Shown here piece after piece: positions 3,375-40,693 of a stretch of DNA of 64,000 nucleotides (positions are counted from its first letter, which is position 1; each line of letters begins with the position of its first letter). The DNA lies in IMG/VR virus record IMGVR_UViG_3300028394_000002, positions 32,998 to 96,997 of that record; one strand, written 5' to 3'. Both the position numbers and the translations under genes were made by a program. Under the pieces are notes generated by a model. It saw nothing but the letters and a program-made list of their open reading frames with translations, had not been told where the DNA came from and did no database searches. Source of the stretch: a virus.

Positions 3375-4226
3375 ATGGCTTTAAACGGTAAACTCATCTC
3401 TGTTAAAGAGGTTGTTAATAATGTACTTAGAGATAATCAATACAAAACTCAAGACTTTGAGGTTGGTAGTATGATTGAATGGTCTGCTGAAGCCTGTGAT
3501 TTAATAGGTGTTCCTTATAATCTTATTAATGATTATGCTATAATCCCTATAGAAGACCATAAAGGGTTTATACCTTGTAATTTACACACACAATTACAAA
3601 CTATGACACTAACAACTAGTGGTGTAGTCTTGCCTATGCGTGAGAGTACTTCAACTACTAACCCTTTTAGTGTTAATAATGTAAATGACTATCCTTTAGT
3701 TAATCCAGTAGACCCAGTAGGATTTGATGTTAATGGCAATCCTATTATGACTTTTAATAATTATGATAGCGCTATCTCAGCTGGATTAATAAACAACTTA
3801 CCTTACTCTTTAAGAGATATTACATATAGCACAAGAGGTAATTATATCTTCACATCTTTTAAAGATGGTGCTAGTGTAGTTATGTTTTATAAAGCCTTTC
3901 CTATAGATGAAGAAGGTTATCCACTTATACCTGATGATACTAGTTACAAAATAGCTGTTCAATCTTACATTAGAATGAAGTTAGACTTCCTTTTATGGAG
4001 AAAGAATATTATAGCTAGAGATGTATTTGAATATGCAGAAAGAGAGTGGATGTGGTATGTAGGCCAAGCTAAAACTAAAGCCTTAACTCCTACTTATGAT
4101 ATGATGGAGTCATGGAAGAATAACTGGTTAACTTTAATGCCTAAGATTAATGAACAAGCTAGAAACTTTGAAGGTGTTGGACAATCTCAATATATTAACT
4201 TTGGTATGAAAAACTATAGATTCTAA
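3375..4226 (+). CDS. Putative tail adaptor/ring protein (P22 gp4-like position)
   Basis: The 283-residue protein starts with a helical segment (VKEVVNNVLRDN) and an SMIEWSAEACDLIGVP segment, a pattern seen in N-terminal helices of head-tail adaptor and tail-tube proteins of podoviruses. The rest is beta-rich, with a C-terminal helical region around residues 190-265. Its stop codon shares bases with the ATG of the giant muzzle protein gene. Adaptor or ring function is inferred from position and this pattern. Structure prediction would distinguish it from the other ring proteins. Confidence 0.6.
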   Translation: MALNGKLISVKEVVNNVLRDNQYKTQDFEVGSMIEWSAEACDLIGVPYNLINDYAIIPIEDHKGFIPCNLHTQLQTMTLTTSGVVLPMRESTSTTNPFSVNNVNDYPLVNPVDPVGFDVNGNPIMTFNNYDSAISAGLINNLPYSLRDITYSTRGNYIFTSFKDGASVVMFYKAFPIDEEGYPLIPDDTSYKIAVQSYIRMKLDFLLWRKNIIARDVFEYAEREWMWYVGQAKTKALTPTYDMMESWKNNWLTLMPKINEQARNFEGVGQSQYINFGMKNYRF

Positions 4227-7200: not shown

Positions 7201-9142
7201 AGGTATTGGAGATAAAAAACACATGATTGTTACTAACCCTATTTGGGGTGGTAATGGAGTACCTCGTGGAGTTGATTTTTCAAATGATGAGGAGGAGTCT
7301 TATTTAGAACAATTAAATACCCCTTATTTCCAATCTGAAGATGCTATTAGGTACAAAGATCATGGAGGAGATTATACTGTTACTTATTGTAGACCTATAA
7401 GTGTTACACAATATGGAGGAGTAGGATACAGTAGTAGAGCTAATAATGAATATATACCTGCAAGTGGTTTTTATTCACTAATTACTAGATTAGGTAATAA
7501 ATCATTTAGTATTAAAGCTAATCTAGGTGATACTTATTTAGGAGTGTATGATGCAGTTAACTATTGTTATTATTACAACCAAGTAAGACCTCTTGGTTAT
7601 CAAGATCCTATTAGAAGTAAGAAAGGGATGTATGAAATATTTCCTTGTGAGTCTAGTTTTAACTTTGCTTTAAGAGAAGGTAATCATCCAATTGTTAGTT
7701 TATCTCCAGATGATTTAAAAGAAAATTCTGATTTTAAAACTGAAAGCATTAGCAATCCTGATCAAAGTAAGTTTTTTAATTTTATAAAGAAACCTAAAAC
7801 AGCTAAAGTTGCGGGAGTTATAGCAGGAACAATGGTATATGGAGCTGTTCTTCCTTTAGCATTACTTAGAGGTGGAATTCATAATAGGTTTAGAAAGCGT
7901 GTACAAAAAGATGGTCCTGATACTGCTAATCTAGTATTAAGAAATGAAAGGTTTTTATTATCTGAATTTAAATACAATGATGTATTCCATCAAAAATATA
8001 ATATTCAAAAGTATTTTCCACCTAGTATGTTTTTTGCTAATGAGGTGGATCAATATACTAATAGAATATGGCATTCTAAACCTAAGATAGATGGTGAAGT
8101 AATTGATAGTTGGAGAGATTTTCAATTTGTAGATTATCTAGATGTTGAAGGTACACAAGGCCCTATTGTAGAATTAGTTGTTAATAAGAATAAAATATTC
8201 TTTTATCAAACTAATGGAATAGGTATTGCTAGTAGTAATGAAAGAGGTGCTGTCCAAGGAGCTGATGGTAGTATAGTTTTAAGTAATAATAAAGTATTAT
8301 TAAGATATGACTACATTACTAAGGAAACTGGTACATCACATCAGTATAGTGTTATTAATACTAATATGGCAATATATCATTATGATGATAGTCTTAAAAA
8401 GATATTTCAAGTAGCTGATTCTAATCCTTACCAAAATAAATCTGGATTAGAATGTATATCTGATAACTCAGGTTTATTTAGTAAATTACAAAGTGTTAAC
8501 AATAACATTAATAAATTATTTAATGGTGTTCACGGTGTATATGATACAGAATATCAAACAATATATTATACATTCTTAGATAGAGTTAATCCTGAGAATA
8601 GTTTTACATTAGGTTACAATGAAAAGATGCAAGCATTTGAAAGCTTCTATAGTTTTAAACCTAAAATATACTTTAAATTAAATACTAGAGTGTTTAGTAG
8701 TTTAGGAGATGATAAATGTTACTGGCATAATAAAGGTAACTATGGAGAGTTTTATGATGATTACTTCCCAAGTAAATTAAAGTTCTTAACTAATGAAAAT
8801 CCATTACAAACTAAAGTTTGGGATAATCAACAATATCAAACTGAAGTATATGATACTAATGGGGTATTACAAAATCTAGTTACTATTGATTTAATACAAC
8901 ATAAAACTGAGAATCAATCTACTTTGTTACAACCTTTGTATCCGCAAAGTAATATTAATAAAGTAGAAAGAGATTGGAAATTACAAATACAAAGAGATAT
9001 TACTAATGCTACTTATTCTACTTTATCTAAACCTAGATTAAGAGATATGTATTTGCAAACAGAAATAAGCTTTACTAATAGAGAGAACCAAAGATTAGTT
9101 TTGCATCCAATTATAACATTTTATAGACAATCAATACATTAA
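4226..9142 (+). CDS. Muzzle/stabilisation protein of the tail (P22 gp10-like)
   Basis: The 1638-residue protein opens with SINSFSKGINQDLAKTVYKE followed by a YLDALNITL segment. This is the N-terminal pattern of crAss-like stabilisation (muzzle) proteins, which cap the short tail. The bulk is beta-rich and repetitive, as in large tail-hub proteins. A helical and hydrophobic insertion lies around residues 670-780 (ITILATVICYKVG region), and a second glycine/alanine-rich hydrophobic segment lies near residue 1200. It is flanked by ring-protein genes and cargo genes. The family assignment is good; assembly details are inferred. Confidence 0.75.
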   Translation: MAEENQQGRQNIQSTGASINSFSKGINQDLAKTVYKEGNYLDALNITLLTDSGLSTAVIQNKKGNKLQIKFPEIIPGATYEFGGEYPQVIPAQENLKALEGIAVTDGNGVQTLFFFTKSNAVGNLNDNGYGQIWRCNFLGTTDNISGAINGYELTVNGHMMYNRDLNFSSVERIKALVKYENQNFSRIYWTDSGVNPVRSINTIGSLSSVLQTPVRTLNIVAYVNLDTPVIKRLIKGELPEGRYQLAYRLLNKYGCLTNFSTCSNLIDVIEGDEFNSEFGYPIADTVAYSTDVMAETDTKDVIDSNKGIEFYIPHIDKDYQMIQYALIHYSQPNLPEIFVYPYKEISLYTNQNESFTDLYSDTTTLTAEEFNIMYSPFEKASTIEIKDNILFAANTTNEMFKVNVDYRAYRFNNGGEAVTYELDGTTNIFSTTYPNNNLLDVINPYNDESGKVFGLNPSGTTIDWFNTQQYKFHQDGVTVGGIGPNISYTFGTTEMIVDTNQININRAPLIQTDIDNNNLVASAPNHTTNNNGSFSSLKSPYKASCQVSWQRGEVYRFGITFYNKKGQASYVNWVADIKMPDFNEVYNNPMSLLSRHGDNGKLLMYSTHINFDVTIPQDLAEDITGFRMVYVERQENDKTRFGTAITGGLQSFERLDINHGYSRSFIITILATVICYKVGNYIDEIDGDMDLFKIKENIRQKIMATVAAAIVKKLLYMPYPAAQRVTSSEDLADFIDSVLDGATNNKGGFLDGIFSGGNLFKLIPPKLVDKIRESIKEDLRKTLAHKVAGLHPNVYSLGQRGLAYSQINSPSGSAAIGYTLSPIIDFNKYTFKQGDYLKPINIFEQDNKVVYQVHRDSTVGLYNVLDSSAYLRKWYKGSTIPWNQVADNDDRRMYIRNQKVLIPGELLGAGFDNVLSSTNSNGGNLDYLISNSYISTIPQTNKRGDIISNASLIIDDVTEAVKKGFENAEFPYNYVPNTDFLKKILRPHTALGIGDKKHMIVTNPIWGGNGVPRGVDFSNDEEESYLEQLNTPYFQSEDAIRYKDHGGDYTVTYCRPISVTQYGGVGYSSRANNEYIPASGFYSLITRLGNKSFSIKANLGDTYLGVYDAVNYCYYYNQVRPLGYQDPIRSKKGMYEIFPCESSFNFALREGNHPIVSLSPDDLKENSDFKTESISNPDQSKFFNFIKKPKTAKVAGVIAGTMVYGAVLPLALLRGGIHNRFRKRVQKDGPDTANLVLRNERFLLSEFKYNDVFHQKYNIQKYFPPSMFFANEVDQYTNRIWHSKPKIDGEVIDSWRDFQFVDYLDVEGTQGPIVELVVNKNKIFFYQTNGIGIASSNERGAVQGADGSIVLSNNKVLLRYDYITKETGTSHQYSVINTNMAIYHYDDSLKKIFQVADSNPYQNKSGLECISDNSGLFSKLQSVNNNINKLFNGVHGVYDTEYQTIYYTFLDRVNPENSFTLGYNEKMQAFESFYSFKPKIYFKLNTRVFSSLGDDKCYWHNKGNYGEFYDDYFPSKLKFLTNENPLQTKVWDNQQYQTEVYDTNGVLQNLVTIDLIQHKTENQSTLLQPLYPQSNINKVERDWKLQIQRDITNATYSTLSKPRLRDMYLQTEISFTNRENQRLVLHPIITFYRQSIH

Positions 9143-9145
9143 GAT

Positions 9146-12100
9146 ATGCCTGATAAAAATAAAAAACAAAGAACTAAAGTATATAGAGATAAATTAGAAT
9201 TTGATAAAGCTAATCAAGCATATGAAGATAGTACTGCTTTAGCTAAACAAAATTTTAGTTTTTTTACTGATGAAGTAAATAAACTTAATATAGGTGATAC
9301 ACTTAAAGAATATAATGAATCTTATAATAATTATTTTACTTGGAAAAAAGATTTAAAAAAAAATGAAAAAATAAGTCCAGGAAGTCTTAATACAGAAATT
9401 AAACCTGAAAAATATTTATATGATTGGGGTGAAAATTGGGGCGTAAATCCATTGTATCATATTAAAGATAAAACTAATCGTAAAGTTATACCGACTGTAG
9501 GTGAAACAGTGGATCCATCTATTAATAAAATTAATGAAGTAAAAAAAATATTTCCTAAAGCATCTCAAGCTTTTATTGATAAAAAAATTAGTGCGAGTAA
9601 ACAAGATTCTATAGGTGTAGGATATATTATTAATAGTGGGGACTATGATGAAAACTTTAAAAAGAAAACAAATCCAGCTTCTTTAGATATAAGTATTAGT
9701 AATAATGGGCCGTATATATATCCTTATTATACTGAACCAACAACTAAGCCTGTATATAAGGACCCAAAAACTTTATATACAGGAAGCAAAGCATTAAAAA
9801 TACAAGGTAAGCCAAGTGGGTATATTAATAAAGGTAATAATACTGGAAGACAAGAGTTTAGAAAAGGTGGATGGTTAGATGGATTAGATGAGGATAATCC
9901 AATACAAGATAATACAAAAGTAAAGGCTGCTGTAATTCCAAATCAAGCATTAATTCAAAGAGCTAAGTTTCTTGAAGGTGATAATTTAGAAAAAAAAATA
10001 AATAAATCTTCTAGTTATTCAAAAGATAAAGATAAAACTGCTTTAAAAAATAAGGATAAAAGAGAAAATACTGTAACCAATGTTAAAAATTCTCAAGTAG
10101 AAAAATATACAAATAAAAATGTTGCTAATAAATTTCATACAGGTTTTAAATATAATGAAATTCAAATTTCAGATAATACAAGAGTAAGCAATCCTGTAAT
10201 TCCAAATCAAACTTTAATACAAAAAAGTAATTTAAATAAAAATAAGGGAACTTTAAAAAGTATAGATAAAATGCCTGTACAACCTCTTACAAAAGAAGAA
10301 GTTAGAAAAGGGGTAAAATTTACAACTGATGTAGCAGGTATGTTTAATCCAATAATGGCTGTTGCAGGCTCTGCTATGGACATGCACCAAGGAGATAAAA
10401 CTGGAGCAGCAATTGGATTAGTTCCTGGACTTAAAAGTTTTATAGCTAGTAAAAATATGGCTACTAAATTAGCTACAAAAATGTTTAATGCAGGAATACC
10501 TAATAAAATAGTAACTCCTATTAAAAAAGGAATTAGAGAAGCTGGTAACTATATATCAGGAACTGCTGAAGTAATTGAGGCTAAAGATGATATAGGTAAA
10601 CCTATAGTAGAAACAGTAAAATCTAAATTAAGAAACGGAGGACAGTTAGATGGTTTAGATAATAATAAGACTGAACAAGCTCCAGATGTTACTAATGCTA
10701 CAGAGTATGTAAAAGGTTGGTATAACTCACCTATGTATGACAACATATTAAGAAATCAAAATATAGATTTAGGTATAACAAATCCTAATAGATTAGAAAG
10801 ACGTGTTAAACAACATAAGAAATATTACAATGAATCAAATTATAATGTTACTCCTAGTGTAGTAGAGAACTTAAAAAACTATGGAGAAGGTTACATTGAT
10901 AATAAAGGTAATAAACAAATAAACTTAAACAAGAATTTTGTACAAAACAATCCTAAATTAGTTAATAGTTTATTTGCCCATGAATTAACTCATGATAATT
11001 TAATGACTGTTAAAGATAGAGAGTATATAAATAAAAATACTCCAGAATATAATCCCGCATTACATAAAGAAGACACATATAATAAGCTTACAGATCCTGA
11101 AGAAGTAAGATCTCAGATACATTCTATTAGACAGCTAAGTGGAGAAAATAAAATTTATGACCCACTTACCCAACCTTTTAAAAAGGAATACTTAGATAAA
11201 GTAAATGAGTCTTATAATCAAGGTACTAAAGAATCTGAAGATTACAATCAATTACAAAGATTAAGACAGTATTATTCAGATGATCAGATTACTGAGATGA
11301 TGAATACTATATCTAAATCTAATTCTAATGATGGAAAGGTTTATGCAAAGAATGGTGGACTGTTAAATAGTTTATCTAAGAAGAGGTTTGACATGGGAGG
11401 CCCTGTAAATGATGAAGAAAATAGTGATATATTACCAAGTTGGGATGCAGTAAAAGCTACTTTAAATCCTTACAATTGGGGAGTAGATGATTACACTAAA
11501 AGTGGAACAAGAGGACAAGCTTTTAATGCTGCAAGAAAAGCAGGAGAAGAAGAATTTATGTGGAATAATCAAAGATATAACACAAGAAAAGATACTGATT
11601 ATATACCATATATAGGTAGCAATCCTAATCAAAAAGAATACGATAATTTTTTAAGAAAAGAATATCCTGAATTTTTTAAAACTCTTAATAGAGGTAAAAA
11701 TGTAGGTAGTATAACTTGGAAAGGAGCTTCTGACAAAGAGCCTAATAGAGCCTCTATAAAGCCAGAACAAACAAATTCTAATATTAATGTTGGAGAAAAT
11801 CCTGAAAGTGGGCATGAGTTTATAGATAATATAATTGCAGAATCTAGTCATTTAAAAGATCCTAAATTATTTGAGAATATATTTAATCCTTATGAGTACA
11901 AAACTGCATATGAATACATACGACATGGTGAAGAAAGATACAAAATACCAGGGACTGCTGAATATGATGCCCATAGATTAAGAGAGCCAGGTATGGCAAT
12001 GATAGCTTATGGAAATTTATCTCCTAATAATATAAAACAAATACAAAAAAATTTAGGAGTAAAAGATGATGGTTATTTTGGACCAGATACATATAAAGCA

Positions 12101-14077
12101 ATGCAATCTAAATATGCAAGTAATCTTAATGTTAAAGCTGCTTTATTAGAACATAAACTAAGATATAGAGATAATGATAAAAATCCTAGCAATTTTGGAG
12201 ATGATATAAACTTAGTTAGAGCATATTTACGGGAAATAGAATCAGAAGTGCCATTTAAAAATAGTGGGCAACTTTCTAATAACTTAACAGCAAATAAAGA
12301 TTATACTGATAATGCGTTAAATAATATTATTCCTGGAAGTGGAGATTATAATGTAAAAAAATTACAAACCACTTTAGTAAATAAAGGTTATAAACTACCT
12401 AAATCTACTACTAAATATAGAACCTTAGATGGAACCTTTGATGGTATATATGGGCCTGAAACTAATAAAGCATTATTAGATTATCAATCTAAAAATGCAA
12501 AATCTAAATTAAGAAACGGTGGTTGGTTAGATGGTTTAAGTAATCCTAATAATGTTATAGAAGATAATAGAGGTCAGTGGGCTCATCCTGGTAAAGTAAC
12601 AAAAATTAACTCTAATCAAATAACAATGAAAGGAGTAAACTACCCTGTTCTTGGTGTATCAGATAGTGGCGACACTCAGATGATGAAGCCAGGTGGAGAG
12701 TATAACTTTAAAGGTAAAACAGTAACTGAGTATCCTCAAAAATTTCAATTAGGAGGGTTTAAAGGATTATCTTCTAATATACCTAAAAATAGACTTGATG
12801 CTGAAGCTAAAGAAGAAGCAAAAAGAATGAATCCAGTTTGGACTCCAGTCAATAATCCTCAAACTCAAGAGGTATATCAACAAGGTCCTAAAAAAGGAAC
12901 TGCTACTGGCAAAGGTGCTTTAGAACCATCTTATCCTGAGTTAATGTTAATGCCTGGTAGTTTACCTATTAAAGCTGCTAGTAAATTAGGTAAAGCTGCT
13001 GTAGTAGCTGCAGAGGCTTTAAATCCTATTGGAGGAATGAGAAATTTGAAAAATAATGTAATTAGTAAATCTGCAGCCGCAAGTTCTACTGTAGGTAATG
13101 TACTTAATGAAACTGCAAGACCTATTAATGGCCATATGCCAGGCACTCCAGAATGGATTAGACTTAATGATATTATAACAAGCAGTAGAGCCGCAGTAAC
13201 AGCAGCTACACCTAAAAATTCAAAACTAATTCACAAAGCTAAAGAGTTAGAAAGAAATATAACAATACCTATTTTAAATTCTAAACCAGCATTAAAAGTA
13301 AGAGAAGCAATCTTAAATAAAATTAATGAAAATTCTGTTGTTTCTAATTCAGCATTTACACCTGAAAATTTAGAAGCTTTTAAAAAATCAGGGTTAATAC
13401 ATGGGGAAGAAGGTACTTTAGTATCAAAAGAAGTTGCCTCCTTATATAGTAATGCGCCAGCAGGTCAAGGTAAATTAAGAGCTTATTTAAGAGGGTATTT
13501 AAATAATAAACAGGCTGATATTGCAGAAACAACATTTCATTCACCTAATAGATCATTTAGCAGTCATGTTAGCTTACCTTCTGATACTAATCCTGTAGGA
13601 GAATTTAAAAATTTTGGTTTTTTTAGTAAAAATCCTATTAGTGCTGGTAAAACAGCAGTAAATCTAAATAAATTAATTTCTAATATACCTGGTAAATGGG
13701 ACTTTAATCCTGGTAGTTTAAGCGGGGACTCTTATCCAATATGGGCAAAAATTGTTAATGATAAAGCTAACCCTCAATTTGAACTTATTAATAAAGGCCT
13801 TACTGGAATGAATACTTTAGGTAAACATACAAAAATATCTAAATTGCTAGAAACAAATATGAAAAATGGATATAATGATCCAGTCAAGGTAGATGAATTT
13901 CTTAAAGAGTTAGAAAAAATAGCAGGAAAAACAGCTGATAAATGGAATGTACCAAAAGAGTCATTAATGCCTGATGACACTAAAGGATTTATACCTGATT
14001 TAAGTATAAAGAAAAAATATAAAAACGGTGGTAAATTAAATAATAATAAGAGCAATTGGTTAGACAATTTAAAATAA
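9146..14077 (+). CDS. Giant virion protein with metalloprotease motif, peptidoglycan-binding repeats and NGG linkers
   Basis: The 1643-residue protein is modular. A metalloprotease zinc motif, HELTH, sits at residues 612-616 (AHELTHDNL). Two peptidoglycan_binding_1-like repeats carry GYFGPDTYKAMQ (about 970-985) and GIYGPETNKALLDYQ (about 1100-1115). A short conserved segment with NRGQWAHPGKV and MKGVNYPVLG follows at about 1140-1175. The modules are separated by a repeated linker of the form (K/R)xGGxLDGL near residues 240, 497 and 1125, with looser copies elsewhere and a related C-terminus. An amphipathic glycine/alanine stretch lies near 405-470. It is probably a virion protein that helps breach the cell wall, which is inferred from its domains. 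Confidence 0.7.
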   Translation: MPDKNKKQRTKVYRDKLEFDKANQAYEDSTALAKQNFSFFTDEVNKLNIGDTLKEYNESYNNYFTWKKDLKKNEKISPGSLNTEIKPEKYLYDWGENWGVNPLYHIKDKTNRKVIPTVGETVDPSINKINEVKKIFPKASQAFIDKKISASKQDSIGVGYIINSGDYDENFKKKTNPASLDISISNNGPYIYPYYTEPTTKPVYKDPKTLYTGSKALKIQGKPSGYINKGNNTGRQEFRKGGWLDGLDEDNPIQDNTKVKAAVIPNQALIQRAKFLEGDNLEKKINKSSSYSKDKDKTALKNKDKRENTVTNVKNSQVEKYTNKNVANKFHTGFKYNEIQISDNTRVSNPVIPNQTLIQKSNLNKNKGTLKSIDKMPVQPLTKEEVRKGVKFTTDVAGMFNPIMAVAGSAMDMHQGDKTGAAIGLVPGLKSFIASKNMATKLATKMFNAGIPNKIVTPIKKGIREAGNYISGTAEVIEAKDDIGKPIVETVKSKLRNGGQLDGLDNNKTEQAPDVTNATEYVKGWYNSPMYDNILRNQNIDLGITNPNRLERRVKQHKKYYNESNYNVTPSVVENLKNYGEGYIDNKGNKQINLNKNFVQNNPKLVNSLFAHELTHDNLMTVKDREYINKNTPEYNPALHKEDTYNKLTDPEEVRSQIHSIRQLSGENKIYDPLTQPFKKEYLDKVNESYNQGTKESEDYNQLQRLRQYYSDDQITEMMNTISKSNSNDGKVYAKNGGLLNSLSKKRFDMGGPVNDEENSDILPSWDAVKATLNPYNWGVDDYTKSGTRGQAFNAARKAGEEEFMWNNQRYNTRKDTDYIPYIGSNPNQKEYDNFLRKEYPEFFKTLNRGKNVGSITWKGASDKEPNRASIKPEQTNSNINVGENPESGHEFIDNIIAESSHLKDPKLFENIFNPYEYKTAYEYIRHGEERYKIPGTAEYDAHRLREPGMAMIAYGNLSPNNIKQIQKNLGVKDDGYFGPDTYKAMQSKYASNLNVKAALLEHKLRYRDNDKNPSNFGDDINLVRAYLREIESEVPFKNSGQLSNNLTANKDYTDNALNNIIPGSGDYNVKKLQTTLVNKGYKLPKSTTKYRTLDGTFDGIYGPETNKALLDYQSKNAKSKLRNGGWLDGLSNPNNVIEDNRGQWAHPGKVTKINSNQITMKGVNYPVLGVSDSGDTQMMKPGGEYNFKGKTVTEYPQKFQLGGFKGLSSNIPKNRLDAEAKEEAKRMNPVWTPVNNPQTQEVYQQGPKKGTATGKGALEPSYPELMLMPGSLPIKAASKLGKAAVVAAEALNPIGGMRNLKNNVISKSAAASSTVGNVLNETARPINGHMPGTPEWIRLNDIITSSRAAVTAATPKNSKLIHKAKELERNITIPILNSKPALKVREAILNKINENSVVSNSAFTPENLEAFKKSGLIHGEEGTLVSKEVASLYSNAPAGQGKLRAYLRGYLNNKQADIAETTFHSPNRSFSSHVSLPSDTNPVGEFKNFGFFSKNPISAGKTAVNLNKLISNIPGKWDFNPGSLSGDSYPIWAKIVNDKANPQFELINKGLTGMNTLGKHTKISKLLETNMKNGYNDPVKVDEFLKELEKIAGKTADKWNVPKESLMPDDTKGFIPDLSIKKKYKNGGKLNNNKSNWLDNLK
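10618..10657 (+). repeat. Direct repeat copy 1 encoding the RNGGxLDGL linker
   Basis: This 40-base stretch is nearly the same as 12500-12539: the first 20 bases are identical and the rest differs at a few positions. Both encode KSKLRNGGxLDGL in the same frame of the 1643-residue protein, so the linker has been duplicated at the DNA level. Confidence 0.75.
12500..12539 (+). repeat. Direct repeat copy 2 encoding the RNGGxLDGL linker
   Basis: This is the second copy of the linker repeat seen at 10618-10657, in the same reading frame. It follows the second peptidoglycan-binding repeat, so the repeat marks module borders. Confidence 0.75.
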
Positions 14078-14083
14078 TTAATT

Positions 14084-15916
14084 ATGACAAAGCAAGAAAT
14101 ACTTAAAACACACAAGATGACCGAGAAGGAGTTCTACGAGAAGTTTCCTACTCAAGAAGCATATAATCAATTTCAAATGGGAGGTTCTTTATCTCCTAAT
14201 CAGAAGTATCAAGGTGGTGGAAGTTTACCTCCGCTTTTACCTGCTTCTGCTGTACCTACTAGTTTAACAGATCCTGTTAAACATTTTACACCGCCTACTA
14301 CAGCACCAGCTGCTGCAGCTCCTGCTGCTGCTCCAGGAGGTTTTAAACTTCCTAATCTATCTGGACTTGGTGGAGGTCAACAAGCTCCTCAACAAGCTGG
14401 AGCGGATCCTAATGCCCCTGTTCAAAAGAATATAGGTAAAACTATAGGTAGTGTAGCAGGCGGTATTGCTGGTTCATTTATACCAATTCCTGGAGTAGGT
14501 ACTATGATAGGCGGGGCTGTAGGAGGTGCTATTGGTGGAGCTATAGATAAGAAAACTTATGAAAATAAAATGGAAGACTATAGTGCTGTTAAATCTAGCC
14601 AGCAGAATGCAATGACTTCTAACATAGCTGGTAACTTTAATCCTAGCGCACAAGGTAAGCAGTTTAAGATGGGTGGTAATTTTACAGAGTACCACGGTAA
14701 TACACATGAGAATGGCGGTATACCTATTGGTAAATCAGAAGTAGAAGGAGGAGAAACTAATCATAATGGTTATATATTTAGTGATACATTACAATTAGGT
14801 AAAAGAACTTTTGCTGATGTAAGTAAAAAGATTAATAACAAGTATTCCAGAAGACCAGATGATAAGATATCTATGGAGTCTAAAGAAAGGGAGTTAGGTA
14901 ATCTTATGAAAGTACAAGAAAGTACTGGTATGACTAATAACTCACAAAGTAAGTTTCAAATGGGCGGGCCTAATTGGATGAACAACATTAATAAGTTAAC
15001 TAATCAAGCTAATGATTTTTCTAATTATAAACCTAATGCAGCAACTGGCCCTCTTGAAATTCCAAGCCAGCAAAGTAGTGGATTCTATACTACTGATGAT
15101 ATAAATTCTAATAAAGAGGCTGTAGGTAATATAGCAAATACATTAGTAACTCAACCAACTGACAGAGGGGCTATTCAAGAAGCAATAGAAAATGAAAGAT
15201 CTAGAGTAGGTTTACAAACTACATCTCCTACATTATCTAAATCTTCTGTATCACCAACACCTGCTACTATAACAAATACTAATAAGCCATTACAAACAAA
15301 AGTTAATCCATTAGGTTACCTAGCTAGTACTATAGGCCCTGCTTATGATGTTGCACGAGGTTTAAAAGGTGGTGATCCTGTTAATTTTGATAGGATGAAT
15401 AGTAAGTATCAATATGCTGATCCTAGAGGAGCTATGGCTGCTGCTAATAAAGGATTGACATCTGCTTACAACTCAACTAAAAACGCTGCTAGAAATACTA
15501 CTACTAGTGCTGGTGAGTACCTTGCTAATATGGGTATTCTGACTAGTAAAGAAGGTATGGATAGAGCTGCTACTATGGCTGGTATTAAAAGTCAATATGA
15601 TATAGCTAATACACAAGGTTTAAATCAAACTAACTTAACTAAAGATCAGTATAATGCTCAAATTCAAATGAGAGAATCTGAAGCTAGACAGCAAGAACAA
15701 GATGCAGCTAGAAGTGCTGTAAGTCAAGGTCTACATAACTTTGGGCAAAACTCTTTAGGATATGGTCAAGATAGAGCTATGAATAAAACACAAAACACAA
15801 TGCTACCGCTACTTGCAGATGGTTATGAGTATGTTATGGATGCTGATGGTAAGGTGAGTAGTAGAAAGAAAATAAGCGCTAATGATTCTAAAACTCCAGT
15901 TACACCAATAGAATAA
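14084..15916 (+). CDS. crAss-like virion protein with glycine-zipper segment and MGG motifs
   Basis: The 610-residue protein starts with a helical EKEFYEKFPTQEAYNQFQMGG segment, then has a Pro/Ala-rich linker. A glycine-zipper, membrane-seeking stretch follows at about 120-160 (GGAVGGAIGGAI). Next comes a conserved segment with KMGGNFTEYHG and NGGIPIGKSEVEGGE (about 195-225) and a KTFADVSKKI-like helix. The C-terminal half is Asn/Gln-rich and helical. The FQMGG or KMGG motif occurs at about residues 30, 195 and 294. This pattern recurs in virion proteins of crAss-like phages. A role in membrane penetration or genome ejection is inferred from the glycine zipper. Confidence 0.65.
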   Translation: MTKQEILKTHKMTEKEFYEKFPTQEAYNQFQMGGSLSPNQKYQGGGSLPPLLPASAVPTSLTDPVKHFTPPTTAPAAAAPAAAPGGFKLPNLSGLGGGQQAPQQAGADPNAPVQKNIGKTIGSVAGGIAGSFIPIPGVGTMIGGAVGGAIGGAIDKKTYENKMEDYSAVKSSQQNAMTSNIAGNFNPSAQGKQFKMGGNFTEYHGNTHENGGIPIGKSEVEGGETNHNGYIFSDTLQLGKRTFADVSKKINNKYSRRPDDKISMESKERELGNLMKVQESTGMTNNSQSKFQMGGPNWMNNINKLTNQANDFSNYKPNAATGPLEIPSQQSSGFYTTDDINSNKEAVGNIANTLVTQPTDRGAIQEAIENERSRVGLQTTSPTLSKSSVSPTPATITNTNKPLQTKVNPLGYLASTIGPAYDVARGLKGGDPVNFDRMNSKYQYADPRGAMAAANKGLTSAYNSTKNAARNTTTSAGEYLANMGILTSKEGMDRAATMAGIKSQYDIANTQGLNQTNLTKDQYNAQIQMRESEARQQEQDAARSAVSQGLHNFGQNSLGYGQDRAMNKTQNTMLPLLADGYEYVMDADGKVSSRKKISANDSKTPVTPIE

Positions 15917-15953: not shown

Positions 15954-17987
15954 ATGAGATTTTTTAAACCAAGTACTACAGAGTATCAATCCCAGTTTTC
16001 TCCTTTAAACCTAGATTTTATGCAAAAGAATCTAGTTCAAAAGGAAGCTAATGATGACGCTGTTGATGACTTATTAGATAAAACAAGCCAACTTCGAGTT
16101 AAAGGCGGAAATTACACAACAACTGAAGAAGAACAAAAGTATAATAACTGGCTAAAAAAAAATACTGATAATGTTAGAAATGGCTTATTAAATAATACTA
16201 TGGATTATAAAGAAGCTTCTAAAAATTTAACTAAAATTATTGAAGTTTATAATACTAATGATACTATTAAAAGAATAAATAATGATGCTGTTTATTCAAA
16301 ATTTCAAAATAAAAACTTAGTAGAGGGTAAATTAAATAGAGCTGTTGGTACTAACTTTAATTATTTAGGACAAACTCCAACTTGGAATAAAGTTAATATG
16401 TCTGAAATTACAGATGATCAGCATGCTGCTTTATATAATACTATAGCACCTACTGGTATATATGATAAAGAAAACTATCAGCATCAAATGGATAAGTTTG
16501 TTGGCGATGCTGTTAGTAATCAATTTGATTTAGCTCCTAAAAAGTATGATACACTTACTGGTGTACCTATGGTTGAAATAGGAGATCATAAATACACTAG
16601 AGAAGAACTAAAAGAAGAAAAAGTGAGAGAGTGGGCTAGAAATGTTTGGGAACAAGAAAATAGAAATAGTAACACTCCTTTTATGCAATATCAAAAACAA
16701 CTATACGGATTAAGTGGAGGAGAGTACACTCAACAACAATTTATAGAAGATGCTGCTAATGGTTTTCCTGGTTATTATAAAAGAGAAATAACTCAAGATA
16801 ATAAATCTTATCAGCAATTACCAAAAGAAGAAACTAAGAAAGTAGAAGCTACACCTTTAGCTAATAGAGCTTTAACAAAAGGGGCTCAAGTTAATGTTGC
16901 AGGTATTAAAAATATTGATAGCTTTAAAAAGCAAATGAATGAAACTTTAAAGGGTATTACTGTTAGAGAAGTACCTAATGCTTTAGGAAATACTTCACAA
17001 GGTTACACAGGCGGCCCTAGAGAAGAAGGTATATCGTTAGCAGATTGGGATGATAAAAAGTTAGATTTGTTAGAAAAATATTATAGAGCTATAAATCAAG
17101 ATGCTGTTGTTGATAATATTATAGCCCCAGCAAGAAAAGGTGGTAAAGATTATTTAAAAGCAATAACTCCTAAATTAATGCAAAAAGCTTTAGACAAGAT
17201 GGAAGGTGGTAAATCTATAACTTCACTAGAAAAAGCTTTTAAAGAAATGGTTGAAAGTGGTTATGTAGATGCAAATGCAGCTGTTACAGATTTTAATACT
17301 GAGGGTGTTACAAGTATCATAGATCCTTCAATATTAGGTATACAAGGAAAAGCGGATAAAAATATAACTTTAGAAGATATATCTGCCAGTTTCTTATCGC
17401 AAAATATATCTATTATAGATGGTAGTACTATGAAAGAATTAACTAAAGGAAATTCTTCAGCTGAATTTTTCAAAAGTTTAGGGTATACATTAGGTACCGA
17501 TAAATTAGCAGATGTTCCTGCTTCAATATATTCGGTAGATCCAGATAATAGTCTAAGAGTAGCTTCAGCAGATAAGACTTCTTGGGGTAATGCAGTAAAA
17601 ATTACTGTCCTTGCTAAAGATGGTACGTTTAAAAATTTCTTTATAAAGGATTTAAAACAAACTTCTAAGAACCCTGATCCAAATATAAGAGAGCAAGAAA
17701 ATACTCAAATAGCTTTCAAAGAAAATGTTAATAATTTAATTAATGATATTCATAGTTTACAATTTGAACCAAATGGTGAAAAAGTTTATTTAGATCCAAA
17801 CGATCCATCTAAATATGTTTATGCTATAAGAGAGAAAGATAAGCAGGGTAGATTTAAAGCTTATTGGTACCATTCAGATAATCCTAATAGAAAATATACT
17901 AACTCAGAAGCTGTTACTAGATATAGTTTAAAATTAGATGTAGATAAAGGCGATTATCTAGATAAACCTGCTGCTGGAAAAAAGTAG
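15954..17987 (+). CDS. Virion protein, short (non-frameshifted) product
   Basis: The 677-residue product begins MRFFKPSTTEYQSQFSPLNL, a start I associate with a recurring crAss-like virion protein. It is mostly helical and charged, with no membrane segment, and the first 110 residues look coiled-coil-like. Translation ends at TAG 17985-17987, directly after the heptamer A AAA AAG, which is a canonical -1 slippery site. A stem-loop follows, so a fraction of ribosomes should continue into the lysozyme-like frame and make a product of about 1220 residues. The short form is presumably the major one, as is usual for programmed frameshifts. Confidence 0.75.
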   Translation: MRFFKPSTTEYQSQFSPLNLDFMQKNLVQKEANDDAVDDLLDKTSQLRVKGGNYTTTEEEQKYNNWLKKNTDNVRNGLLNNTMDYKEASKNLTKIIEVYNTNDTIKRINNDAVYSKFQNKNLVEGKLNRAVGTNFNYLGQTPTWNKVNMSEITDDQHAALYNTIAPTGIYDKENYQHQMDKFVGDAVSNQFDLAPKKYDTLTGVPMVEIGDHKYTREELKEEKVREWARNVWEQENRNSNTPFMQYQKQLYGLSGGEYTQQQFIEDAANGFPGYYKREITQDNKSYQQLPKEETKKVEATPLANRALTKGAQVNVAGIKNIDSFKKQMNETLKGITVREVPNALGNTSQGYTGGPREEGISLADWDDKKLDLLEKYYRAINQDAVVDNIIAPARKGGKDYLKAITPKLMQKALDKMEGGKSITSLEKAFKEMVESGYVDANAAVTDFNTEGVTSIIDPSILGIQGKADKNITLEDISASFLSQNISIIDGSTMKELTKGNSSAEFFKSLGYTLGTDKLADVPASIYSVDPDNSLRVASADKTSWGNAVKITVLAKDGTFKNFFIKDLKQTSKNPDPNIREQENTQIAFKENVNNLINDIHSLQFEPNGEKVYLDPNDPSKYVYAIREKDKQGRFKAYWYHSDNPNRKYTNSEAVTRYSLKLDVDKGDYLDKPAAGKK

Positions 17988-18025
17988 AAACTTCAGTAGA
18001 AACTAAAGCTCGCCCTACTGGAGTT
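17978..18025 (+). promoter_or_regulatory. Programmed -1 ribosomal frameshift signal
   Basis: The heptamer A AAA AAG (17978-17984) is in the correct phase: zero-frame codons are AAA and AAG, followed by the stop TAG. A stem of AACTTCAGTAG (17989-17999) with CTACTGGAGTT (18015-18025) has 11 pairs including one G-U. It encloses a 15-base loop and begins 4-6 bases after the heptamer. Loop bases CTCG (18009-18012) could pair with CGAG (18027-18030) to form a small pseudoknot. The -1 frame is open and encodes a recognisable domain. An indel error in the A run is the main alternative. Confidence 0.8.
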
Positions 18026-19615
18026 ACGAGAGCAGAATTTAATAACAACCCTGGGAATTTAAAAGGGTGGGACCCTAAATTACCTAAAGATAAGGGAGGG
18101 TTTGATCAATTTACAACATTAGAAAATGGTTGGAGTGCTTTAAATAGGCAAGTTAAAAAAGATGCGCTACCTGAAAGAAAGCATACTGTTGATACATTTC
18201 TTGAAAAATATGCACCAGCTTCAGATAACAATAATCATGAAGGGTATGTAAATTACTTTACAGAGAGTGTAAATCAAGCTGCTAAACAATTAGGTAAAGT
18301 TATAAATGTTAATTCAACTACACCTTTAAAAACTATAGTAGATACTATAGGAGAGAAAGAAGTAGCTAAAATTATATCTAAAAAAGAAGATGGTAAAACT
18401 TATAAAAAGTTAGAGCAAGCTAATTTCTTTGAAACTAAACCTGTAGTTAAACCGACAGTGGCTGCTAAAAGAGATTTAAGTTTTATACCAACTAAAAAAC
18501 CTACTAAAGTACCAGTAGCTAAAACACCTGTTAAAGAAGAATCAACATTACAGGCATTTGAAAAAAGTGTGATAAGCACATCTACTGCTATAGGAAATGC
18601 TGCAGAAGATGTTACACAATGGGCTAAAAGAGCAATGGTTAAACAAGGATTAGCAAATCCTGATGTAGATATAATAAAAGCTAAAAAAGTAACTTTTACT
18701 AAACCTACTACAAAAGCAACTGATGAAGTTGAAGCTCGTTTTGAATTATTAGGTGATGTTCCTGCTCAAAAAAATTCTAAAGAAGATAAATATTTTTCAT
18801 ATTATAATAAGTTTGATAGGAACAAAGGATTTAATTATGTACCTGTAAAAAATGTAGGCGCTAGTGATGTTAATACATCATATAAAAATGTTGCAGGTAT
18901 AGCTCATTTTATTTTAGATACAGATTTAGCAAGTAATACACAACATAAATATGGTAAAGGTTATGTAGATGAAAATTTAAAAGGAAATCCAATAGCAAAG
19001 GGTTCTACAGTTACAGATCCATTTGTTGTAGAAGTAACTAAAAATGAAGATAAAGTTAATATAAAGTACAAACGATTATCTGAAGTTACAGATAAATCTA
19101 AAGTTAAAACACCTTTAAGACAATTAAGATACACAGATTTAGATTGGGATGGGAAAACCGAAGTTGTATTTACTTATGATGATAAAGGAAAAAGACATAG
19201 TTCTTTTAAAAGTTCAATTAAAAGTATACCTGTAAAAGTTCCTTATGATGTTTATAATCCTATCACAAAGAAAAATGAAAAATCTACTTCTACAGATTTT
19301 ATATTTCCTAATGTAGCTAATGGTAAAGATAGTTATAATAAATTTGGTGGAGGTTCTGTAGTATTTTTAGCTAACAATAAAAAATTTGCAATAGATTTTG
19401 CAGGATCTATTAATCAAATTAAACAAACTGCTGAACAAATTATAAAACAAGAAAATATTAAACCTGAAGATTTAATTATTGCTTATCATGATTTAGGAAG
19501 TTTTTCAGCTAAACCTAAAGCCAGAAAAAATAATACTCTAAGTTTTTATCAATGGTCTGATTTTAATAACCAAGGTTATACAGGAGGAGCATTAGCAATA
19601 CCTATTAATAAATAA
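17984..19615 (+). CDS. Frameshift-accessed extension with murein hydrolase-like domain
   Basis: Read in the -1 frame from 17984, this adds 543 residues to the upstream 677. The first part contains EFNNNPGNLKGW, then GGFDQFTTLENGWSALNRQV and a helical FLEKYAPASDNNNHEGYVNYF segment. This is the pattern of the lysozyme-like domain of phage structural proteins (P5-type virion-associated murein hydrolases). A Lys/Thr-rich linker and a beta-rich C-terminal region of about 300 residues follow, which I do not recognise. The only internal initiator (GTG at 18458) lies after the hydrolase domain and has no gene-start context. Expression by frameshifting is therefore the best explanation. Confidence 0.75.
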   Translation, partial: VETSVETKARPTGVTRAEFNNNPGNLKGWDPKLPKDKGGFDQFTTLENGWSALNRQVKKDALPERKHTVDTFLEKYAPASDNNNHEGYVNYFTESVNQAAKQLGKVINVNSTTPLKTIVDTIGEKEVAKIISKKEDGKTYKKLEQANFFETKPVVKPTVAAKRDLSFIPTKKPTKVPVAKTPVKEESTLQAFEKSVISTSTAIGNAAEDVTQWAKRAMVKQGLANPDVDIIKAKKVTFTKPTTKATDEVEARFELLGDVPAQKNSKEDKYFSYYNKFDRNKGFNYVPVKNVGASDVNTSYKNVAGIAHFILDTDLASNTQHKYGKGYVDENLKGNPIAKGSTVTDPFVVEVTKNEDKVNIKYKRLSEVTDKSKVKTPLRQLRYTDLDWDGKTEVVFTYDDKGKRHSSFKSSIKSIPVKVPYDVYNPITKKNEKSTSTDFIFPNVANGKDSYNKFGGGSVVFLANNKKFAIDFAGSINQIKQTAEQIIKQENIKPEDLIIAYHDLGSFSAKPKARKNNTLSFYQWSDFNNQGYTGGALAIPINK

Positions 19616-19620
19616 ACAAT

Positions 19621-22600
19621 ATGCCAGAAAATAATAACCCCTCATTTGATATAAATTTTTTACTAGCAAATGCGCAGAGTCAAGGAATAATAGGCTCTCC
19701 TTATAAAAATAGACAGTCGTTAATATTACCTACTGAAGAAGTTAGTCAGTATGATCAAGGGTATATGGTACCATTTGAAGGTGATCCTATGGATTCTTTT
19801 TATGAGCATAGAGCTATTAATCAGCCAGGTATTGATCAACTTGCTAATGGTGTAGTTAAAGGAGCTGGACTAGCTGTTACTACATTTGCAGATACTTTTG
19901 GAGGGACTGTATATGGAATAGGTAATATGATTGCTAAAGGTGCAGCTGGAGATATAGAATCAGGTGGAGATTTATTAAATGCTTTTGTTGACAATCCTTT
20001 TAGTAATGCTATGCAGGATTTTAATGAAGGGATGGAAAGTGCTTTTGCAAACTACAGAACTAAAGCTGAACAAGAAGGCGGATTATTAGATCAAATGTTT
20101 GATGCTGATAAAGCAGCTAACTTTTGGGGTGATATGTTTATTAAGAATCTAGGGTTTGCTGGAGGAGCTATGGCTGCTGGTATGGTTAGCGGTAATTTAT
20201 TTAGTAATTTAGGCAAAGCTTTTACTCAAAAGAAAGAAGTAGAGTTATTTAATAAAATGACTAAATCTATTGCTACTGGAGAGGCTAAAAATATAGATGA
20301 AGCTATTGCATTATTACAGCAAGCTCCTGAGTTAACTAATACAACAGCTGCTACTGTTAAAGGTATGCTTGAATCAGGCGCTAAGACTTACAGAAATTGG
20401 AATAGGGCTAATCAAATAACTTCCTCTGCTATAGCTGCAACTGGTGAAGCTAGGATAGAAGCTTTAGGTAATGGCAGACAATTCTATGATACCAACAAAA
20501 AAGCTTTAGATGAAGAATACTTTGACCCTACAACTAATAGAATTAAAGCTGGTAAGGAGCAAGAGTACGAAGAGAAGTTAAAAAGTCTTGATGAGAATGT
20601 TAAAGGATTTCAGAATGCTGAATTTCTTTGGAACTCTGTATTATTAACAGCTAGTAACTTTGCTGGGTATAGAGATATGTTTGCAAAAAACTATGCTTTA
20701 AATGCTAAGAGATTTGAAAACAGTATTAAGATGACTGCTTTAAATGAGTTAAAAGCTGGAGAGAACATAGCTACTGCTATTAAACCTAAATGGTATAGCA
20801 CTTTAGGTAAAGCTGCTATATCTTCTAATAGAGAAGGTATGGAAGAGTTTTTCCAAGGTGTAGTACAAAAGTCTGCTGAAGATTACTATTCAGGTAAATT
20901 TACAGGAGCTAAGCAAGGAGGTATTACAGATATTATTAGTAGTGTTGGCCAAGGTCTATCTAATTCTACTAATCAAGAAGGTCTTACTAATTATTTTTTA
21001 GGGGCCCTTACTGGATTAATAATGCCTGGTGCAGGACTTTACCAATCTTTTAAAGATGCTAACACTGAAAATGTAGAAGCACAAGAAAGAGCTGGTGAAA
21101 TTAATAAAGCTTTTAATGAGTACTCAGCAGAGTTAAAACAAGATCCTACTAGAACTATTATTAACTTCCAAGAGATGTTAAATAGAAGTGCTAATTTAGA
21201 TCAAGCACAACAACAAGCCTTACTAAGTAGTGATAAATATAACTATGAATCTTTAAAACATGAGAAGTTTTATAATTTAGCTAATGCTTATATCAAAGCT
21301 GGTAAATATGAAGAGCTTTCTGATATGTTAAAAGATGAAACTAAATTGTCTGCTGATGATATTAGGAATAAGTATACTATACCAGTAGACCCTAAAGATG
21401 AAACTAAAGGTAAAAAAAGTTTTTTTGATGCTAAATGGAGTGATGATGAGGTAATGACTTACATTAGAAAACAATCTAGCACTAATTTAAAAGCTGTTGA
21501 AGATTTAAAAAATGTTACTGAAGATTTAGAAGCTATGTTTGGTGAACAAATAGCTTTAGTTTCTGATGGAGATAAAACTAAACAAGTAGCTATTAAAGAT
21601 ATTTTAAATAGAAGTTTATATTTAGGTGAAACTCAGGATAAACGAATTATAGATGTTTATAATGAAGTTACTGCTACTATTATGAAGGTAACTAATAATG
21701 CTTATGTATTAGCAGATTTTAGTCAACTAAATCCAACTACTATTAAAAATTTAACCACTGAAGATTTAGATAAATTAGATGGGGCTATTGATTCTATTGC
21801 TAAATTAAATATTTCAAAAATAGAACAATTAGACTTAATAGAAAAGCTAAATGATTTAACCCAATTAATAGGGGAAAGAAAAGCAATGAACTCTGCTTGG
21901 ATTAGATTAACTAATAATAACTTTACTCAAACTTTAAATATTATAGCTAAGGCTGATAAAGAAGCTGTTGATACTAAAGCAGCTGAAGAGGCTAAACAAC
22001 TATCTGATAAAGAAAAGATTAACATAGTTAGAGAAAATTCTAAAAGAGCTGGTTGGGTAGATAAAGGAGGTAATGGAATTATTGGTAATCAATTTGTTAT
22101 GAAGGTTGCTGGTAAAAATACTGCATTTGAATTAGTGCCTATTAATATAACAGAGCTAAGAAAAGAGTTTGAAGATGAAAAAAATAAAGCGTTAGAAGGT
22201 TTAGATCCTATTACTGATAAAGAAAAGATAGCTGATATTATACAAAAGTATAATGATAAGCTACAAAGTATTATAGAGGATAGAAAGACTAAAGGATTAC
22301 TATTAAAAAATATTAAAACTGGAGAATACGTTAAAAATAAAAAAGGTGTACTACAGTTATTTAATGAGGAGTTTATAGTTAAATACTTTGATAAAATAAA
22401 TTTTGTTAATAAACAACAAACTTTAATTAATAAAGTAAAGTCTACAGCTATTAAAACTAATGCTGCTAAAATTAAAGCATTAGAAGCAGTTGCTAACACT
22501 TTAAATAAAGAGATTATAACTACTATAGAGGAAGCTAAAAAAGTATTACTTGAGCAAAATGCTTTAAAAGAAGAGTTAGCTTTTCAAAAAGAGTATTATA

Positions 22601-25600
22601 AACTTGTTGGTAATATTAAAGAGAAAGGAGCTATTAACAAATCTATAAAAGCTCTAGAACAAAGAATAGCTGAATTAGAAAAAGTTAAAGAGGATATATC
22701 TAGAGTATTTAATCAACTAGCTTCTCAAAAGAATGATTTATTATTAGTCGTTGAAGAAATGAAAGACTCTTTTAAAAAGGGCCTAGATTTTTCTTTAAAT
22801 GAGTTTTTAGAAAAGTTAGATCAAATGAACTTAGAGTCTATTGATAAGATATGGGCTAAAAAACTTTCTAAAGATTTAGAAGAGTTAGCTAATACTGATG
22901 ATATAGATTATGCTTTAAATCAACTTAGTATATTAAAAGATAATGTTACTGAACAAATTGCAGCATTAAGAAAACAAGTTGAACTATTACAAACTGCTAT
23001 AAATGAATCTGATGATTTTAAAAATTGGGTATTTGCTACTAAAATAGATGACTTACCTCAATGGTTTAAAGTTAAGTGGAAAGTTGCTGATAAATATAAT
23101 TTAACAACAGCTGAATTATTAGAAGATCCTAAAATTAGAGCTTTAGCAGATTATATATTTAAAAAGTTTGCTACTACTTATAATCTTACAATTGAAGAAG
23201 CTAGAGCTGAATTTAATAAAGATTTAGAAGAGATAAATTTAAATTTAAATTATGTAAATAGACAATCATTAGAAAATGAAGCTGTAGTTACTAAACAACA
23301 ATTAGCTGAATTAGAACAAAATTTAATTGATATTAATAATCTAATTAGATTTAATAATAATAGAAAGTTATTTGAAAATTTAAATAACGCACTACAATCT
23401 ATAAAAATAGAATATTCTACTATTCTTAATAGAGATAGAAAAGATGAAATTAGTAATTTACCTGATTCACAAAAAGCAGGTGATGAAGAATTTAATCCTA
23501 AACCTATTCATACAGAAATTGCTAGTAGAGTTTTAAATAGTAATGCTCTATCTGACCATTTATTTTATACTACTAATATGACTGTAGAGTATGAAACTAA
23601 TGCTGAAGGTAAGTTAGAAACAGTTTATGATGCAGATGGTTATCCAGTTATTAATAAAAATGAAGATTCTATAAGATGGAATAACTTCTTAGAACAAAAT
23701 ACTCCTGATATAACTAATTCTAAATATGTTTTAAGAACATATCTTTTATCTGGTGCTAAGATACCTGCTGATTTAAAAATAGATGCTTTAAAACGTATTT
23801 CTAATGGTGGAGGAATTCATGATCCAGCAAATGATATAGTTACTGTATTAGTAAATACTGCTGATGGAGAGTTTGTTAAGTCAGATGATCAAGGTGAAGT
23901 ATCTAAAACTGGTAAGTATGTGTATACATTTTTACCTAAAGCAGATACTTTAATAGATAATAAAGGTAAAAGTAAAGTTAACTTAAATGCATTAGTAAAT
24001 TTCTTTATGCGTAATGCTAGTATGGAAGTTAAAGACCCTACTAACATTCATTTAACAGATCCTACTAAGTATATTACTGTTGGAGAAAAGAAATTAACTC
24101 CTTCACAATTTAAAGAGTTAGTAACAAATTTTGCTAAAGCTAACTATAACGAGTTTATAGCAGAGTTAAAAGCTAATATGGAAGCTAATGAAACTACTTA
24201 TTTAAAAGCTCCTGGAGTTACTAATGGTATTCTTTTAACTAGAGAATCTAATAAAGATGTTGCTAAATCTCCTATGAGTTCAGTAGCTGAAGTATTAAAA
24301 AACAAAAGAGGTCTTGATTCTCAAAAACCAGAAGACTTAGAGAATATAGGTGTTTATGTAATTGATAATAGTGAGGTTTGGGAAATACCAGGTTCTGGAA
24401 TTAAAATTAAAAATGGAAAGAAAGGAGCTGTTATAGTTTATAATAAAAAAACTAAAGAGTATTTCTATGCTAACCAAAGAAAGATATCTACAGAAGATAA
24501 GAAACTTATTATATACTACTTACAACAATCTAGGACACAAACAGAAAGTAGTCTTAGTGAGAAAAAGTTAAATATTGGTAATGATGGTAAGAGTTACTAT
24601 ATAGCTGATAATATGGGTAATAATGAGAAAGTTACAGATGTACCTATATTTGGTAAAACTGGTACTTTATCATTAATGAATAATATTATATTTTGGGGAG
24701 GTTCTAAAAATCCAGGTAGTAAGAACACTATTTACTTAAAGAGTAATAAAGTATATTTCTCAAACCCTAATCAAGGTTGGGCTATTACTGCTATTGATTT
24801 AGCTAATTTAGATAACCCTAAGTATAATTTAGATTTTATGGCTTTCTTAGATACTAAAAGACATAACATATCTAAGAATATGTTTGCTACAAATAAATTT
24901 TACAAGCACCCTTATATAAATGGTAAAGGAGAATTAGCTTGGAAAACTTATCCAAATGGCTATAAAGAGTTCTTATTAAACTCTAAAGATCCAATTTTAA
25001 TTACAAATGCTGTTAGTTCTAATAGTAAATATAATGGTAATAAGATGCTATTTGCTTCTAAAAATGTTATATTAGATAGTTCTAATAATGGTAAACCTAA
25101 AATATTAAATAAACTACAAACTCAACCTGAACCTGAACCTGCTCCTAAACCAGCTTCAACTCCTGGCGCTAAACCTTCATCAGGCCCAGCTGCTGGAAAA
25201 GATGCTCCTACTGAGGTGGAATTTGATGAAAACAAAATAGTATTTGGAGGAAATCTTCCAGCAGGTTTAAGAGGTGCTAGTGCTTCTGCAACTCCTGTGC
25301 CAACAGCTAAAAATTTATTTGAAGAAGTAGTAGAAGCTCATTATGGTAGTTTTATATATCAAAGTAGTAAATTTACAGAACAAGCTGGATTAAGAGCACC
25401 TGAAATTTATGGTACTAATTTTGAAAAAGTTTTTAGAAGTATAATTAAAAACAAAGGTTTAGATTCAATTATTAGAGCTGCATTATTTAGTAGAATAGGA
25501 TTTATTTTTGAAAATAGACTTACAAATAAAACGACAGGTATTCAAGAACTAGTTGAATATATTAACAAAAGCTTTAATTTAAATATTAAAATTGATAGCA

Positions 25601-40003: not shown

Positions 40004-40693
40004 CTAAATTGTTATTAAATTACCATTATTACTAGGCCCTTTATCAAACTCTCCATCTGTTACTACACTACCATTACTAAAAATAGTAGGTAAAGTTCCT
40101 AGTTGTCTAATACCTGAATTTAAGTTATCTTCATTATCATGAATATGTCCAAAACAAACTAACTTAGGTTTAATTTGAAATACTTTTTTTAATAAAGCAC
40201 CGCATCCACAATACTCTAATAACCACTTATTATCTATTTTATGATAAGCTAAGTCCATAATCCCTTTAGGAGGACCATGAGTTATTATAATATCAGTATC
40301 ATCAGGTATAGTAGCCCACAAATCATGTAATTTTTCACGCTTCTTATTGTAAGCCCAACCTATTCCAAAACTAGGAGTATATGGACTACCCCATATCTTT
40401 AAACCTTCTATTTCAATTGAGCTGTTTTCTAAGTAAGTAATTCCTACTGATTCAAAATTATCTTTTGTTAAATACCCAGCTTCAATAGAAGTGTCATGAT
40501 TACCTGCTACAAATATTTTATATTTCATAGGAAGATTTACAAACCAAGTTATAAAATCTCTTACTTGCACTTTATTAATAGAAGGCTCTCTAGGGTTACT
40601 ACAATCACCGCTAAATATTACAATATCACAATCTTTAGGAGGATTAAGATATTCATGTTTAGTATGTGTATCGCTAATGTGCCAAATCTTCAT
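40004..40693 (-). CDS. Calcineurin-like metallophosphoesterase
   Basis: The 229-residue protein shows the full metallophosphoesterase motif set. Asp8 and His10 sit in HISDTH, Asp30 in FSGDC, and GNHD at 64-67 follows, then a later ITHGPPKG and CFGHIHDN. Such enzymes hydrolyse phosphomono- or phosphodiester bonds using two metal ions. The substrate is not readable from sequence; phage members act on nucleotides, RNA ends or DNA ends. Start and end overlap or abut neighbours in the early operon. The family assignment is secure. Confidence 0.9.
   Translation of the reverse strand: MKIWHISDTHTKHEYLNPPKDCDIVIFSGDCSNPREPSINKVQVRDFITWFVNLPMKYKIFVAGNHDTSIEAGYLTKDNFESVGITYLENSSIEIEGLKIWGSPYTPSFGIGWAYNKKREKLHDLWATIPDDTDIIITHGPPKGIMDLAYHKIDNKWLLEYCGCGALLKKVFQIKPKLVCFGHIHDNEDNLNSGIRQLGTLPTIFSNGSVVTDGEFDKGPSNNGNLITI

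Follow-up and report, generated by a model that had tools for sequence, protein, structure and literature searches.

The C2-position gene and the frame behind it

The window (the whole 64 kb stretch analysed here, with a GC content of 29%) comes from a viral record of 97 kb and represents the late region of a crAss-like phage. One of its late genes is followed by a long reading frame in the −1 frame, and the genes around this junction are listed below.

4226-9142: muzzle gene (Pfam crAss_MUZ match, 2e-142)
14084-15916, + strand: C1 (gp45) candidate cargo protein with a glycine zipper (Pfam crAss_CARG1, 3e-8)
15954-17987, + strand: zero-frame ORF of 677 aa, putative cargo protein at the C2/gp46 position (from relatives and gene order)
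17984-19615, + strand: extension in the −1 frame, 543 codons, the first 158 without a start of their own
19621-26595, + strand: large gene at the gp47 position, starting 5 nt past the stop of the extension

The order of genes after the muzzle in PhicrAss001 is gp45 (C1), gp46 (C2) and gp47, and the window has the identical order. By its position in the late cluster, between C1 (gp45) and a gp47-like gene, the 677-codon ORF fits C2, and from this gene order we infer that it encodes cargo protein C2; it occupies the same slot as PhicrAss001 gp46 and is of similar size (PMC10172136). Its description as a virion protein in the first-pass annotation is supported by the same gene order, as gp46 was detected by mass spectrometry in PhicrAss001 virions, which by estimate have room for as many as 12 copies, and has been proposed to take part in the ejection channel (PMC10172136). 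The two differ in that crAss001 gp46 stops directly ahead of gp47 and has no extension. An hhalign comparison of the C2-position protein (as a two-sequence profile) with crAss001 gp46 and phi14:2 g068 gave no similarity. The 677-aa protein and its DNA gave no matches when used directly as queries, and relatives were reached via the extension, then via C1 and then with a three-sequence C2 profile. These relatives are in G001 (IMGVR_UViG_3300008259_000098), G003 and G004 (IMGVR_UViG_3300042509_001112), and more weakly in G005; G001 and G004 are the two crAss-like contigs in which the extension is also present.

Between the muzzle gene and C1 lies a gene of 1643 aa (9146-14077) with a match (1e-8) to PG_binding_1, a peptidoglycan-binding domain. 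The corresponding genes of relatives encode 724, 1226 and 1122 aa, and two of them do not match PG_binding_1.

Slippery heptamer and probable downstream stem

The elements of the signal are, in order along the window:

17963-17965, + strand: −1 frame TAA that bounds the overlap on its upstream side, at the same position in all three phages
17978-17984, + strand: slippery heptamer A AAA AAG, read in phase by the 677-codon ORF and identical in G001 and G004
17985-17987, + strand: zero-frame stop TAG, immediately 3′ of the heptamer
17991-17999, + strand: 5′ arm of the 9-pair core stem, 6 nt past the heptamer (the window adds 2 pairs, to 17989)
18008-18011, + strand: GCUC in the loop, candidate pseudoknot partner of 18030-18033, which pairs in all three phages and never varies
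18015-18023, + strand: 3′ arm of the core stem (extended in the window to 18025)
18030-18033, + strand: GAGC, candidate pseudoknot partner of 18008-18011

The first-pass annotation had placed the heptamer in phase and directly before the stop, had read the −1 frame as open for 543 codons with no start codon in its first segment, and had put the fusion at about 1220 residues. All of this holds on inspection: the ORF ends in GGA AAA AAG TAG, its six A's occupying 17978-17983, followed by G (17984) and the TAG (17985-17987); the −1 frame begins at 17984 and reaches its stop at 19615; no ATG, GTG, TTG or CTG is found in the window before extension codon 159; and 677 + 543 gives 1220. Upstream of its GTA codon the −1 frame extends for just 6 codons before it is closed by the TAA at 17963. 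Any shift must therefore take place in a stretch of about 20 nt, where the heptamer is the sole slippery site. A_AAA_AAG is highly shift-prone in E. coli, where it is the dnaX site (PMC5009743), though the host here may differ.

The C2-position genes of G001 and G004 likewise end in GGA AAA AAG TAG, and their −1 extensions have 517 and 514 codons, respectively. At the level of sequence the signal is conserved in the three phages, which have in common the heptamer, the TAG, the core stem, the six-codon overlap and the 6-nt spacer. A comparison with related crAss-like genomes had been proposed earlier; both other carriers of the extension have the identical heptamer and core stem, and a single continuous frame is found in 0 of the 3 extension-bearing phages. 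The first ATG of the G004 extension is codon 31, within the hydrolase domain described below. At codon 218 of the extension (window position 18635) the window and G001 both have an in-frame ATG, from which a separate C-terminal product could be made in these two phages.

We scanned for any in-phase slippery heptamer that lies at most 45 nt from a stop and is followed by 80 or more codons of open −1 frame. The window, G001 and G004 each gave exactly one site, in every case this heptamer, and the retrieved parts of G003 and G005 gave none. With a minimum of 60 codons, a comparable scan of nine named crassvirus-related phages (crAss001, cr85_1, phi14:2, DAC15, cr108_1, Fpv3, cr60_1, ProJPt-Bp1 and cr116_1) gave no site in their late regions. 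In-phase A_AAA_AAG is seen 3 times in 10,552 late-gene codons, as against about 6 expected. Recoding of the TAG was also considered as a route into the extension and rejected. A ribosome reading through it in the zero frame would reach another in-frame TAG after three codons, then a third stop some 20 codons later, and would never enter the extension; TAG also terminates other genes.

The window stem (AACUUCAGUAG/CUACUGGAGUU) has the 11 pairs counted in the first-pass annotation, with a folding energy of −12.9 kcal/mol and a z value of −2.1 against dinucleotide shuffles, but the pairing common to the three phages is limited to the inner 9 pairs, with a spacer of 6 nt and a loop of 15 nt. Two of the core pairs vary on one side with pairing kept (U-G to C-G and U-A to U-G), and no two-sided compensatory change was found in the core stem among the three related sequences. 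Codon third positions are invariant across both arms, whereas loop codons 6, 8 and 10 and codons 15 and 17 just downstream vary. Random synonymous recoding of the three sequences gave the full core in 4.0, 7.3 and 4.6% of trials, values that cannot simply be multiplied because the sequences are related. Conservation of the stem is not fully independent either, as there are three sequences with related cassettes, and we regard the core stem as probable rather than proven. The four-pair pseudoknot also suggested earlier remains ambiguous. CUCG/CGAG forms in the window only, is not kept in G001 and G004, and was rejected, while GCUC/GAGC can pair in all three phages and is a possible pseudoknot there; with both of its arms invariant, it displays no covariation.

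The extension, its relatives and its exchange

The extension can be divided as follows.

18026-18418, + strand: murein-hydrolase-like domain of the Enc34/PHA02564 type, extension residues about 15-145 (profile matches)
18386-18388, + strand: candidate catalytic Glu, extension residue 135
18536-19612, + strand: C-terminal part, alike in G001 and divergent in G004

For residues about 15-145 (TRAEFNNNPGNL...), the PHROG matches are to endolysin and tape-measure families, with values of 1e-9 to 1e-13. Among solved structures the domain matches the phage protein Gp29 (9vvp, E 7e-7) and the Enc34 endolysin (7q47, E 2e-4), the latter over most but not all of its length. These profile matches agree with the earlier reading of a lysozyme-type domain and point to a murein hydrolase. 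No Ig-like match was found in the extension in Pfam or PHROG, where the hydrolase match was obtained instead. The Enc34 domain is muralytic, and its groove holds Glu131, Trp79 and Tyr95 (PMC8943055). Tyr76, Tyr88 and Glu135 of the extension align plausibly with these groove residues and are likely their counterparts, the Glu being mapped only via 9vvp and the phage contig L005. An AlphaFold model of the domain reached a pLDDT of 56, too poor to establish a permuted lysozyme fold, and the lack of a Foldseek match to it carries no weight; for the C-terminal part the structure model was of no value. In L005, a GC-rich contig of an unrelated phage, the same hydrolase domain opens a stand-alone gene with its own ATG (7998-9371).

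Over extension codons 1-170 dN/dS is 0.17 between the window and G001, 0.30 between the window and G004, and 0.34 between G001 and G004. Since these values indicate purifying selection, the hydrolase part would be translated and selected, and such selection on a frame without a start is not expected unless that frame is reached from the one upstream. The sister lineages do not have the extension. The relative of the upstream gene in G003 has 701 aa, stops with TAA and is followed by the next gene 6 nt on, and that in G005 has 988 aa; no hydrolase match was found anywhere in these two records, which may be incomplete. As G003 and G005 have the same gene with no extension, the 677-aa product appears complete by itself. 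A search for the extension in bacterial genomes gave no match.

The upstream proteins of the window and G001 are 31% identical across the first 290 residues, with little similarity beyond, whereas their extensions are 81% identical. Correspondingly, dS between the two phages is 0.92 for the upstream gene, 0.22 for the extension and 0.83 for the gene downstream; the majority of the other genes compared fall at 0.57-1.57. Ungapped nucleotide identity rises from ~0.3 to 0.9 in the last ~15 nt before the heptamer. The upstream protein of G004 is 61% identical to that of G001, and its extension is 82% identical to that of the window over the first 164 residues, with a divergent C-terminal part. Because the similarity sets in some 15 nt ahead of the heptamer, the signal travelled with the extension as a single cassette; on the evidence of these alignments, heptamer, stem and extension have evidently been exchanged between these phages as one unit. 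The simplest history would be an ancestral zero-frame protein, with heptamer, stem and extension inserted before the next gene and since exchanged. We give even odds to the wider proposal that a self-contained frameshift cassette brings its own dosage control, placing a minority extension on a divergent acceptor whose stop and majority product are kept.

Elsewhere in the window, on the − strand, a metallophosphatase gene (40004-40693) has a dS of 0.10 to G001, far under the genome-typical 0.6-1.5, and the product of a ribonucleotide-reductase-like gene (41538-43406) is 92% identical in amino acids to that of G001. These two genes are apparently a second stretch recently exchanged between the window phage and G001.

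Interpretation and rival explanations

We interpret the locus as a programmed −1 ribosomal frameshift of the X_XXY_YYZ type, by which a minority of the copies of a putative ejected cargo protein would gain a predicted murein hydrolase, and place the probability of this reading at roughly 0.8. Ribosomes on the C2-position gene would reach A_AAA_AAG, and most would halt at the adjacent TAG to give the 677-residue protein. A fraction, stalled by the stem 6 nt downstream, would slip back by one base, AAA AAG now pairing as AAA AAA, and read 543 more codons, giving a 1220-residue fusion of the cargo portion, the Enc34-type murein-hydrolase domain and the variable C-terminal part. Through its cargo portion the fusion should enter the virion and leave it again alongside other C2 copies, so that a few copies of the enzyme could open peptidoglycan locally while DNA and protein are ejected. 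Slippage and its rate, incorporation into virions and the enzymatic role at entry are what we infer here.

The same fusion might be made, or seem to be made, in other ways. The frames differ by one homopolymer base, and a seventh A would fuse them, so that one continuous gene could have been split by a mistake in sequencing or assembly, or by an indel that arose recently in the A run. Yet six A's and the same core stem are found in three contigs from separate records with diverged flanking proteins, and sister genes end here with no extension at all; error is thereby refuted unless the identical one arose three times, and we give it next to no weight. Slippage of a phage or host RNA polymerase, adding an A in the A6 run, would yield minority mRNAs that encode the very same fusion; the homopolymeric run is present and crAss-like phages carry their own RNA polymerase. 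This remains improbable, as the run is held at six within an in-phase heptamer that ends in G and is shift-prone in E. coli (PMC5009743), and transcriptional slippage has no need of the conserved stem downstream at ribosomal spacing.

It is also conceivable that the extension is made as a separate protein, from an internal start or by reinitiation after the TAG, and the ATG at codon 218 would allow this for a C-terminal protein. The start-less first 158 codons of the window are, however, the most conserved and under purifying selection, and the earliest ATG of G004 falls inside the hydrolase domain, which leaves separate synthesis very improbable. A further alternative accepts frameshifting but places the action of the fusion in the infected cell (e.g. 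in lysis) and not among the virion cargo, in line with the match to the endolysin 7q47 besides phage Gp29. We consider this unlikely, given that the domain is fused to a gene in the slot of a virion cargo protein, that its PHROG relatives are filed as head/packaging and tape measure, and that the gene sits in the late structural cluster.

For the proposed frameshift, the closest match in mechanism is dnaX of E. coli, with which the first-pass annotation had compared the site. The likeness is borne out by the same in-phase heptamer and a downstream stem at similar spacing (9-pair core and 6-nt spacer in 3 of 3 phages, inside the 5-9 nt range for such signals), and the two products predicted here would likewise have a common N-terminus. 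The frameshift in dnaX shortens its product, whereas here it would add 543 residues. Also, dnaX has an upstream Shine-Dalgarno stimulator (PMC5009743), and no Shine-Dalgarno-like element is present upstream of the heptamer in the window.

The nearest known kind is that of mobile Ig-like domains appended by frameshifting to phage structural proteins, as in the T3 capsid, A2 and Listeria phages (PMC5009743). There, as predicted here, an optional mobile domain is placed at the 3′ end on a minority of a virion protein, and the window extension is likewise optional on a putative structural protein, sporadic among relatives and horizontally exchanged. The differences are that the module here is a predicted murein hydrolase, that the acceptor is the C2-position cargo protein, and that the cassette takes its own signal along in exchange. 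With the Enc34 endolysin (PHA02564; 7q47; PMC8943055) the domain has in common the NNNPGN motif and the domain sequence (E 2e-4), and probably also the aromatic residues and the C-terminal Glu in corresponding positions, but the Enc34 endolysin comes from a separate lysis gene with a membrane anchor, while here the domain would be reached by frameshift only.

Virion-borne murein hydrolases are known from T7, where gp16 has this activity. Another is the tape measure of mycobacteriophage TM4 (PMC1796659). Both resemble the predicted window fusion in having a wall-degrading domain on a virion protein for use at entry. Their domains are encoded in one frame, and thus every copy carries the domain, unlike in the window fusion.

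In a limited literature search combining Crassvirales with ribosomal frameshifting, we found no report of frameshifting in this group. Gene callers would give a 677-aa gene and a truncated ORF of 326-385 aa, missing the hydrolase domain, and similar cases may therefore be hidden. The arrangement suggests a low-risk way of acquiring a domain, since the old protein remains a product when the acquired piece sits behind a frameshift. Passage of crAss-like phages through peptidoglycan is little described, and the text of the PhicrAss001 structural paper mentions neither peptidoglycan nor lysozyme (PMC10172136). The window fusion would be a concrete candidate for this step, with copy-number control built in.
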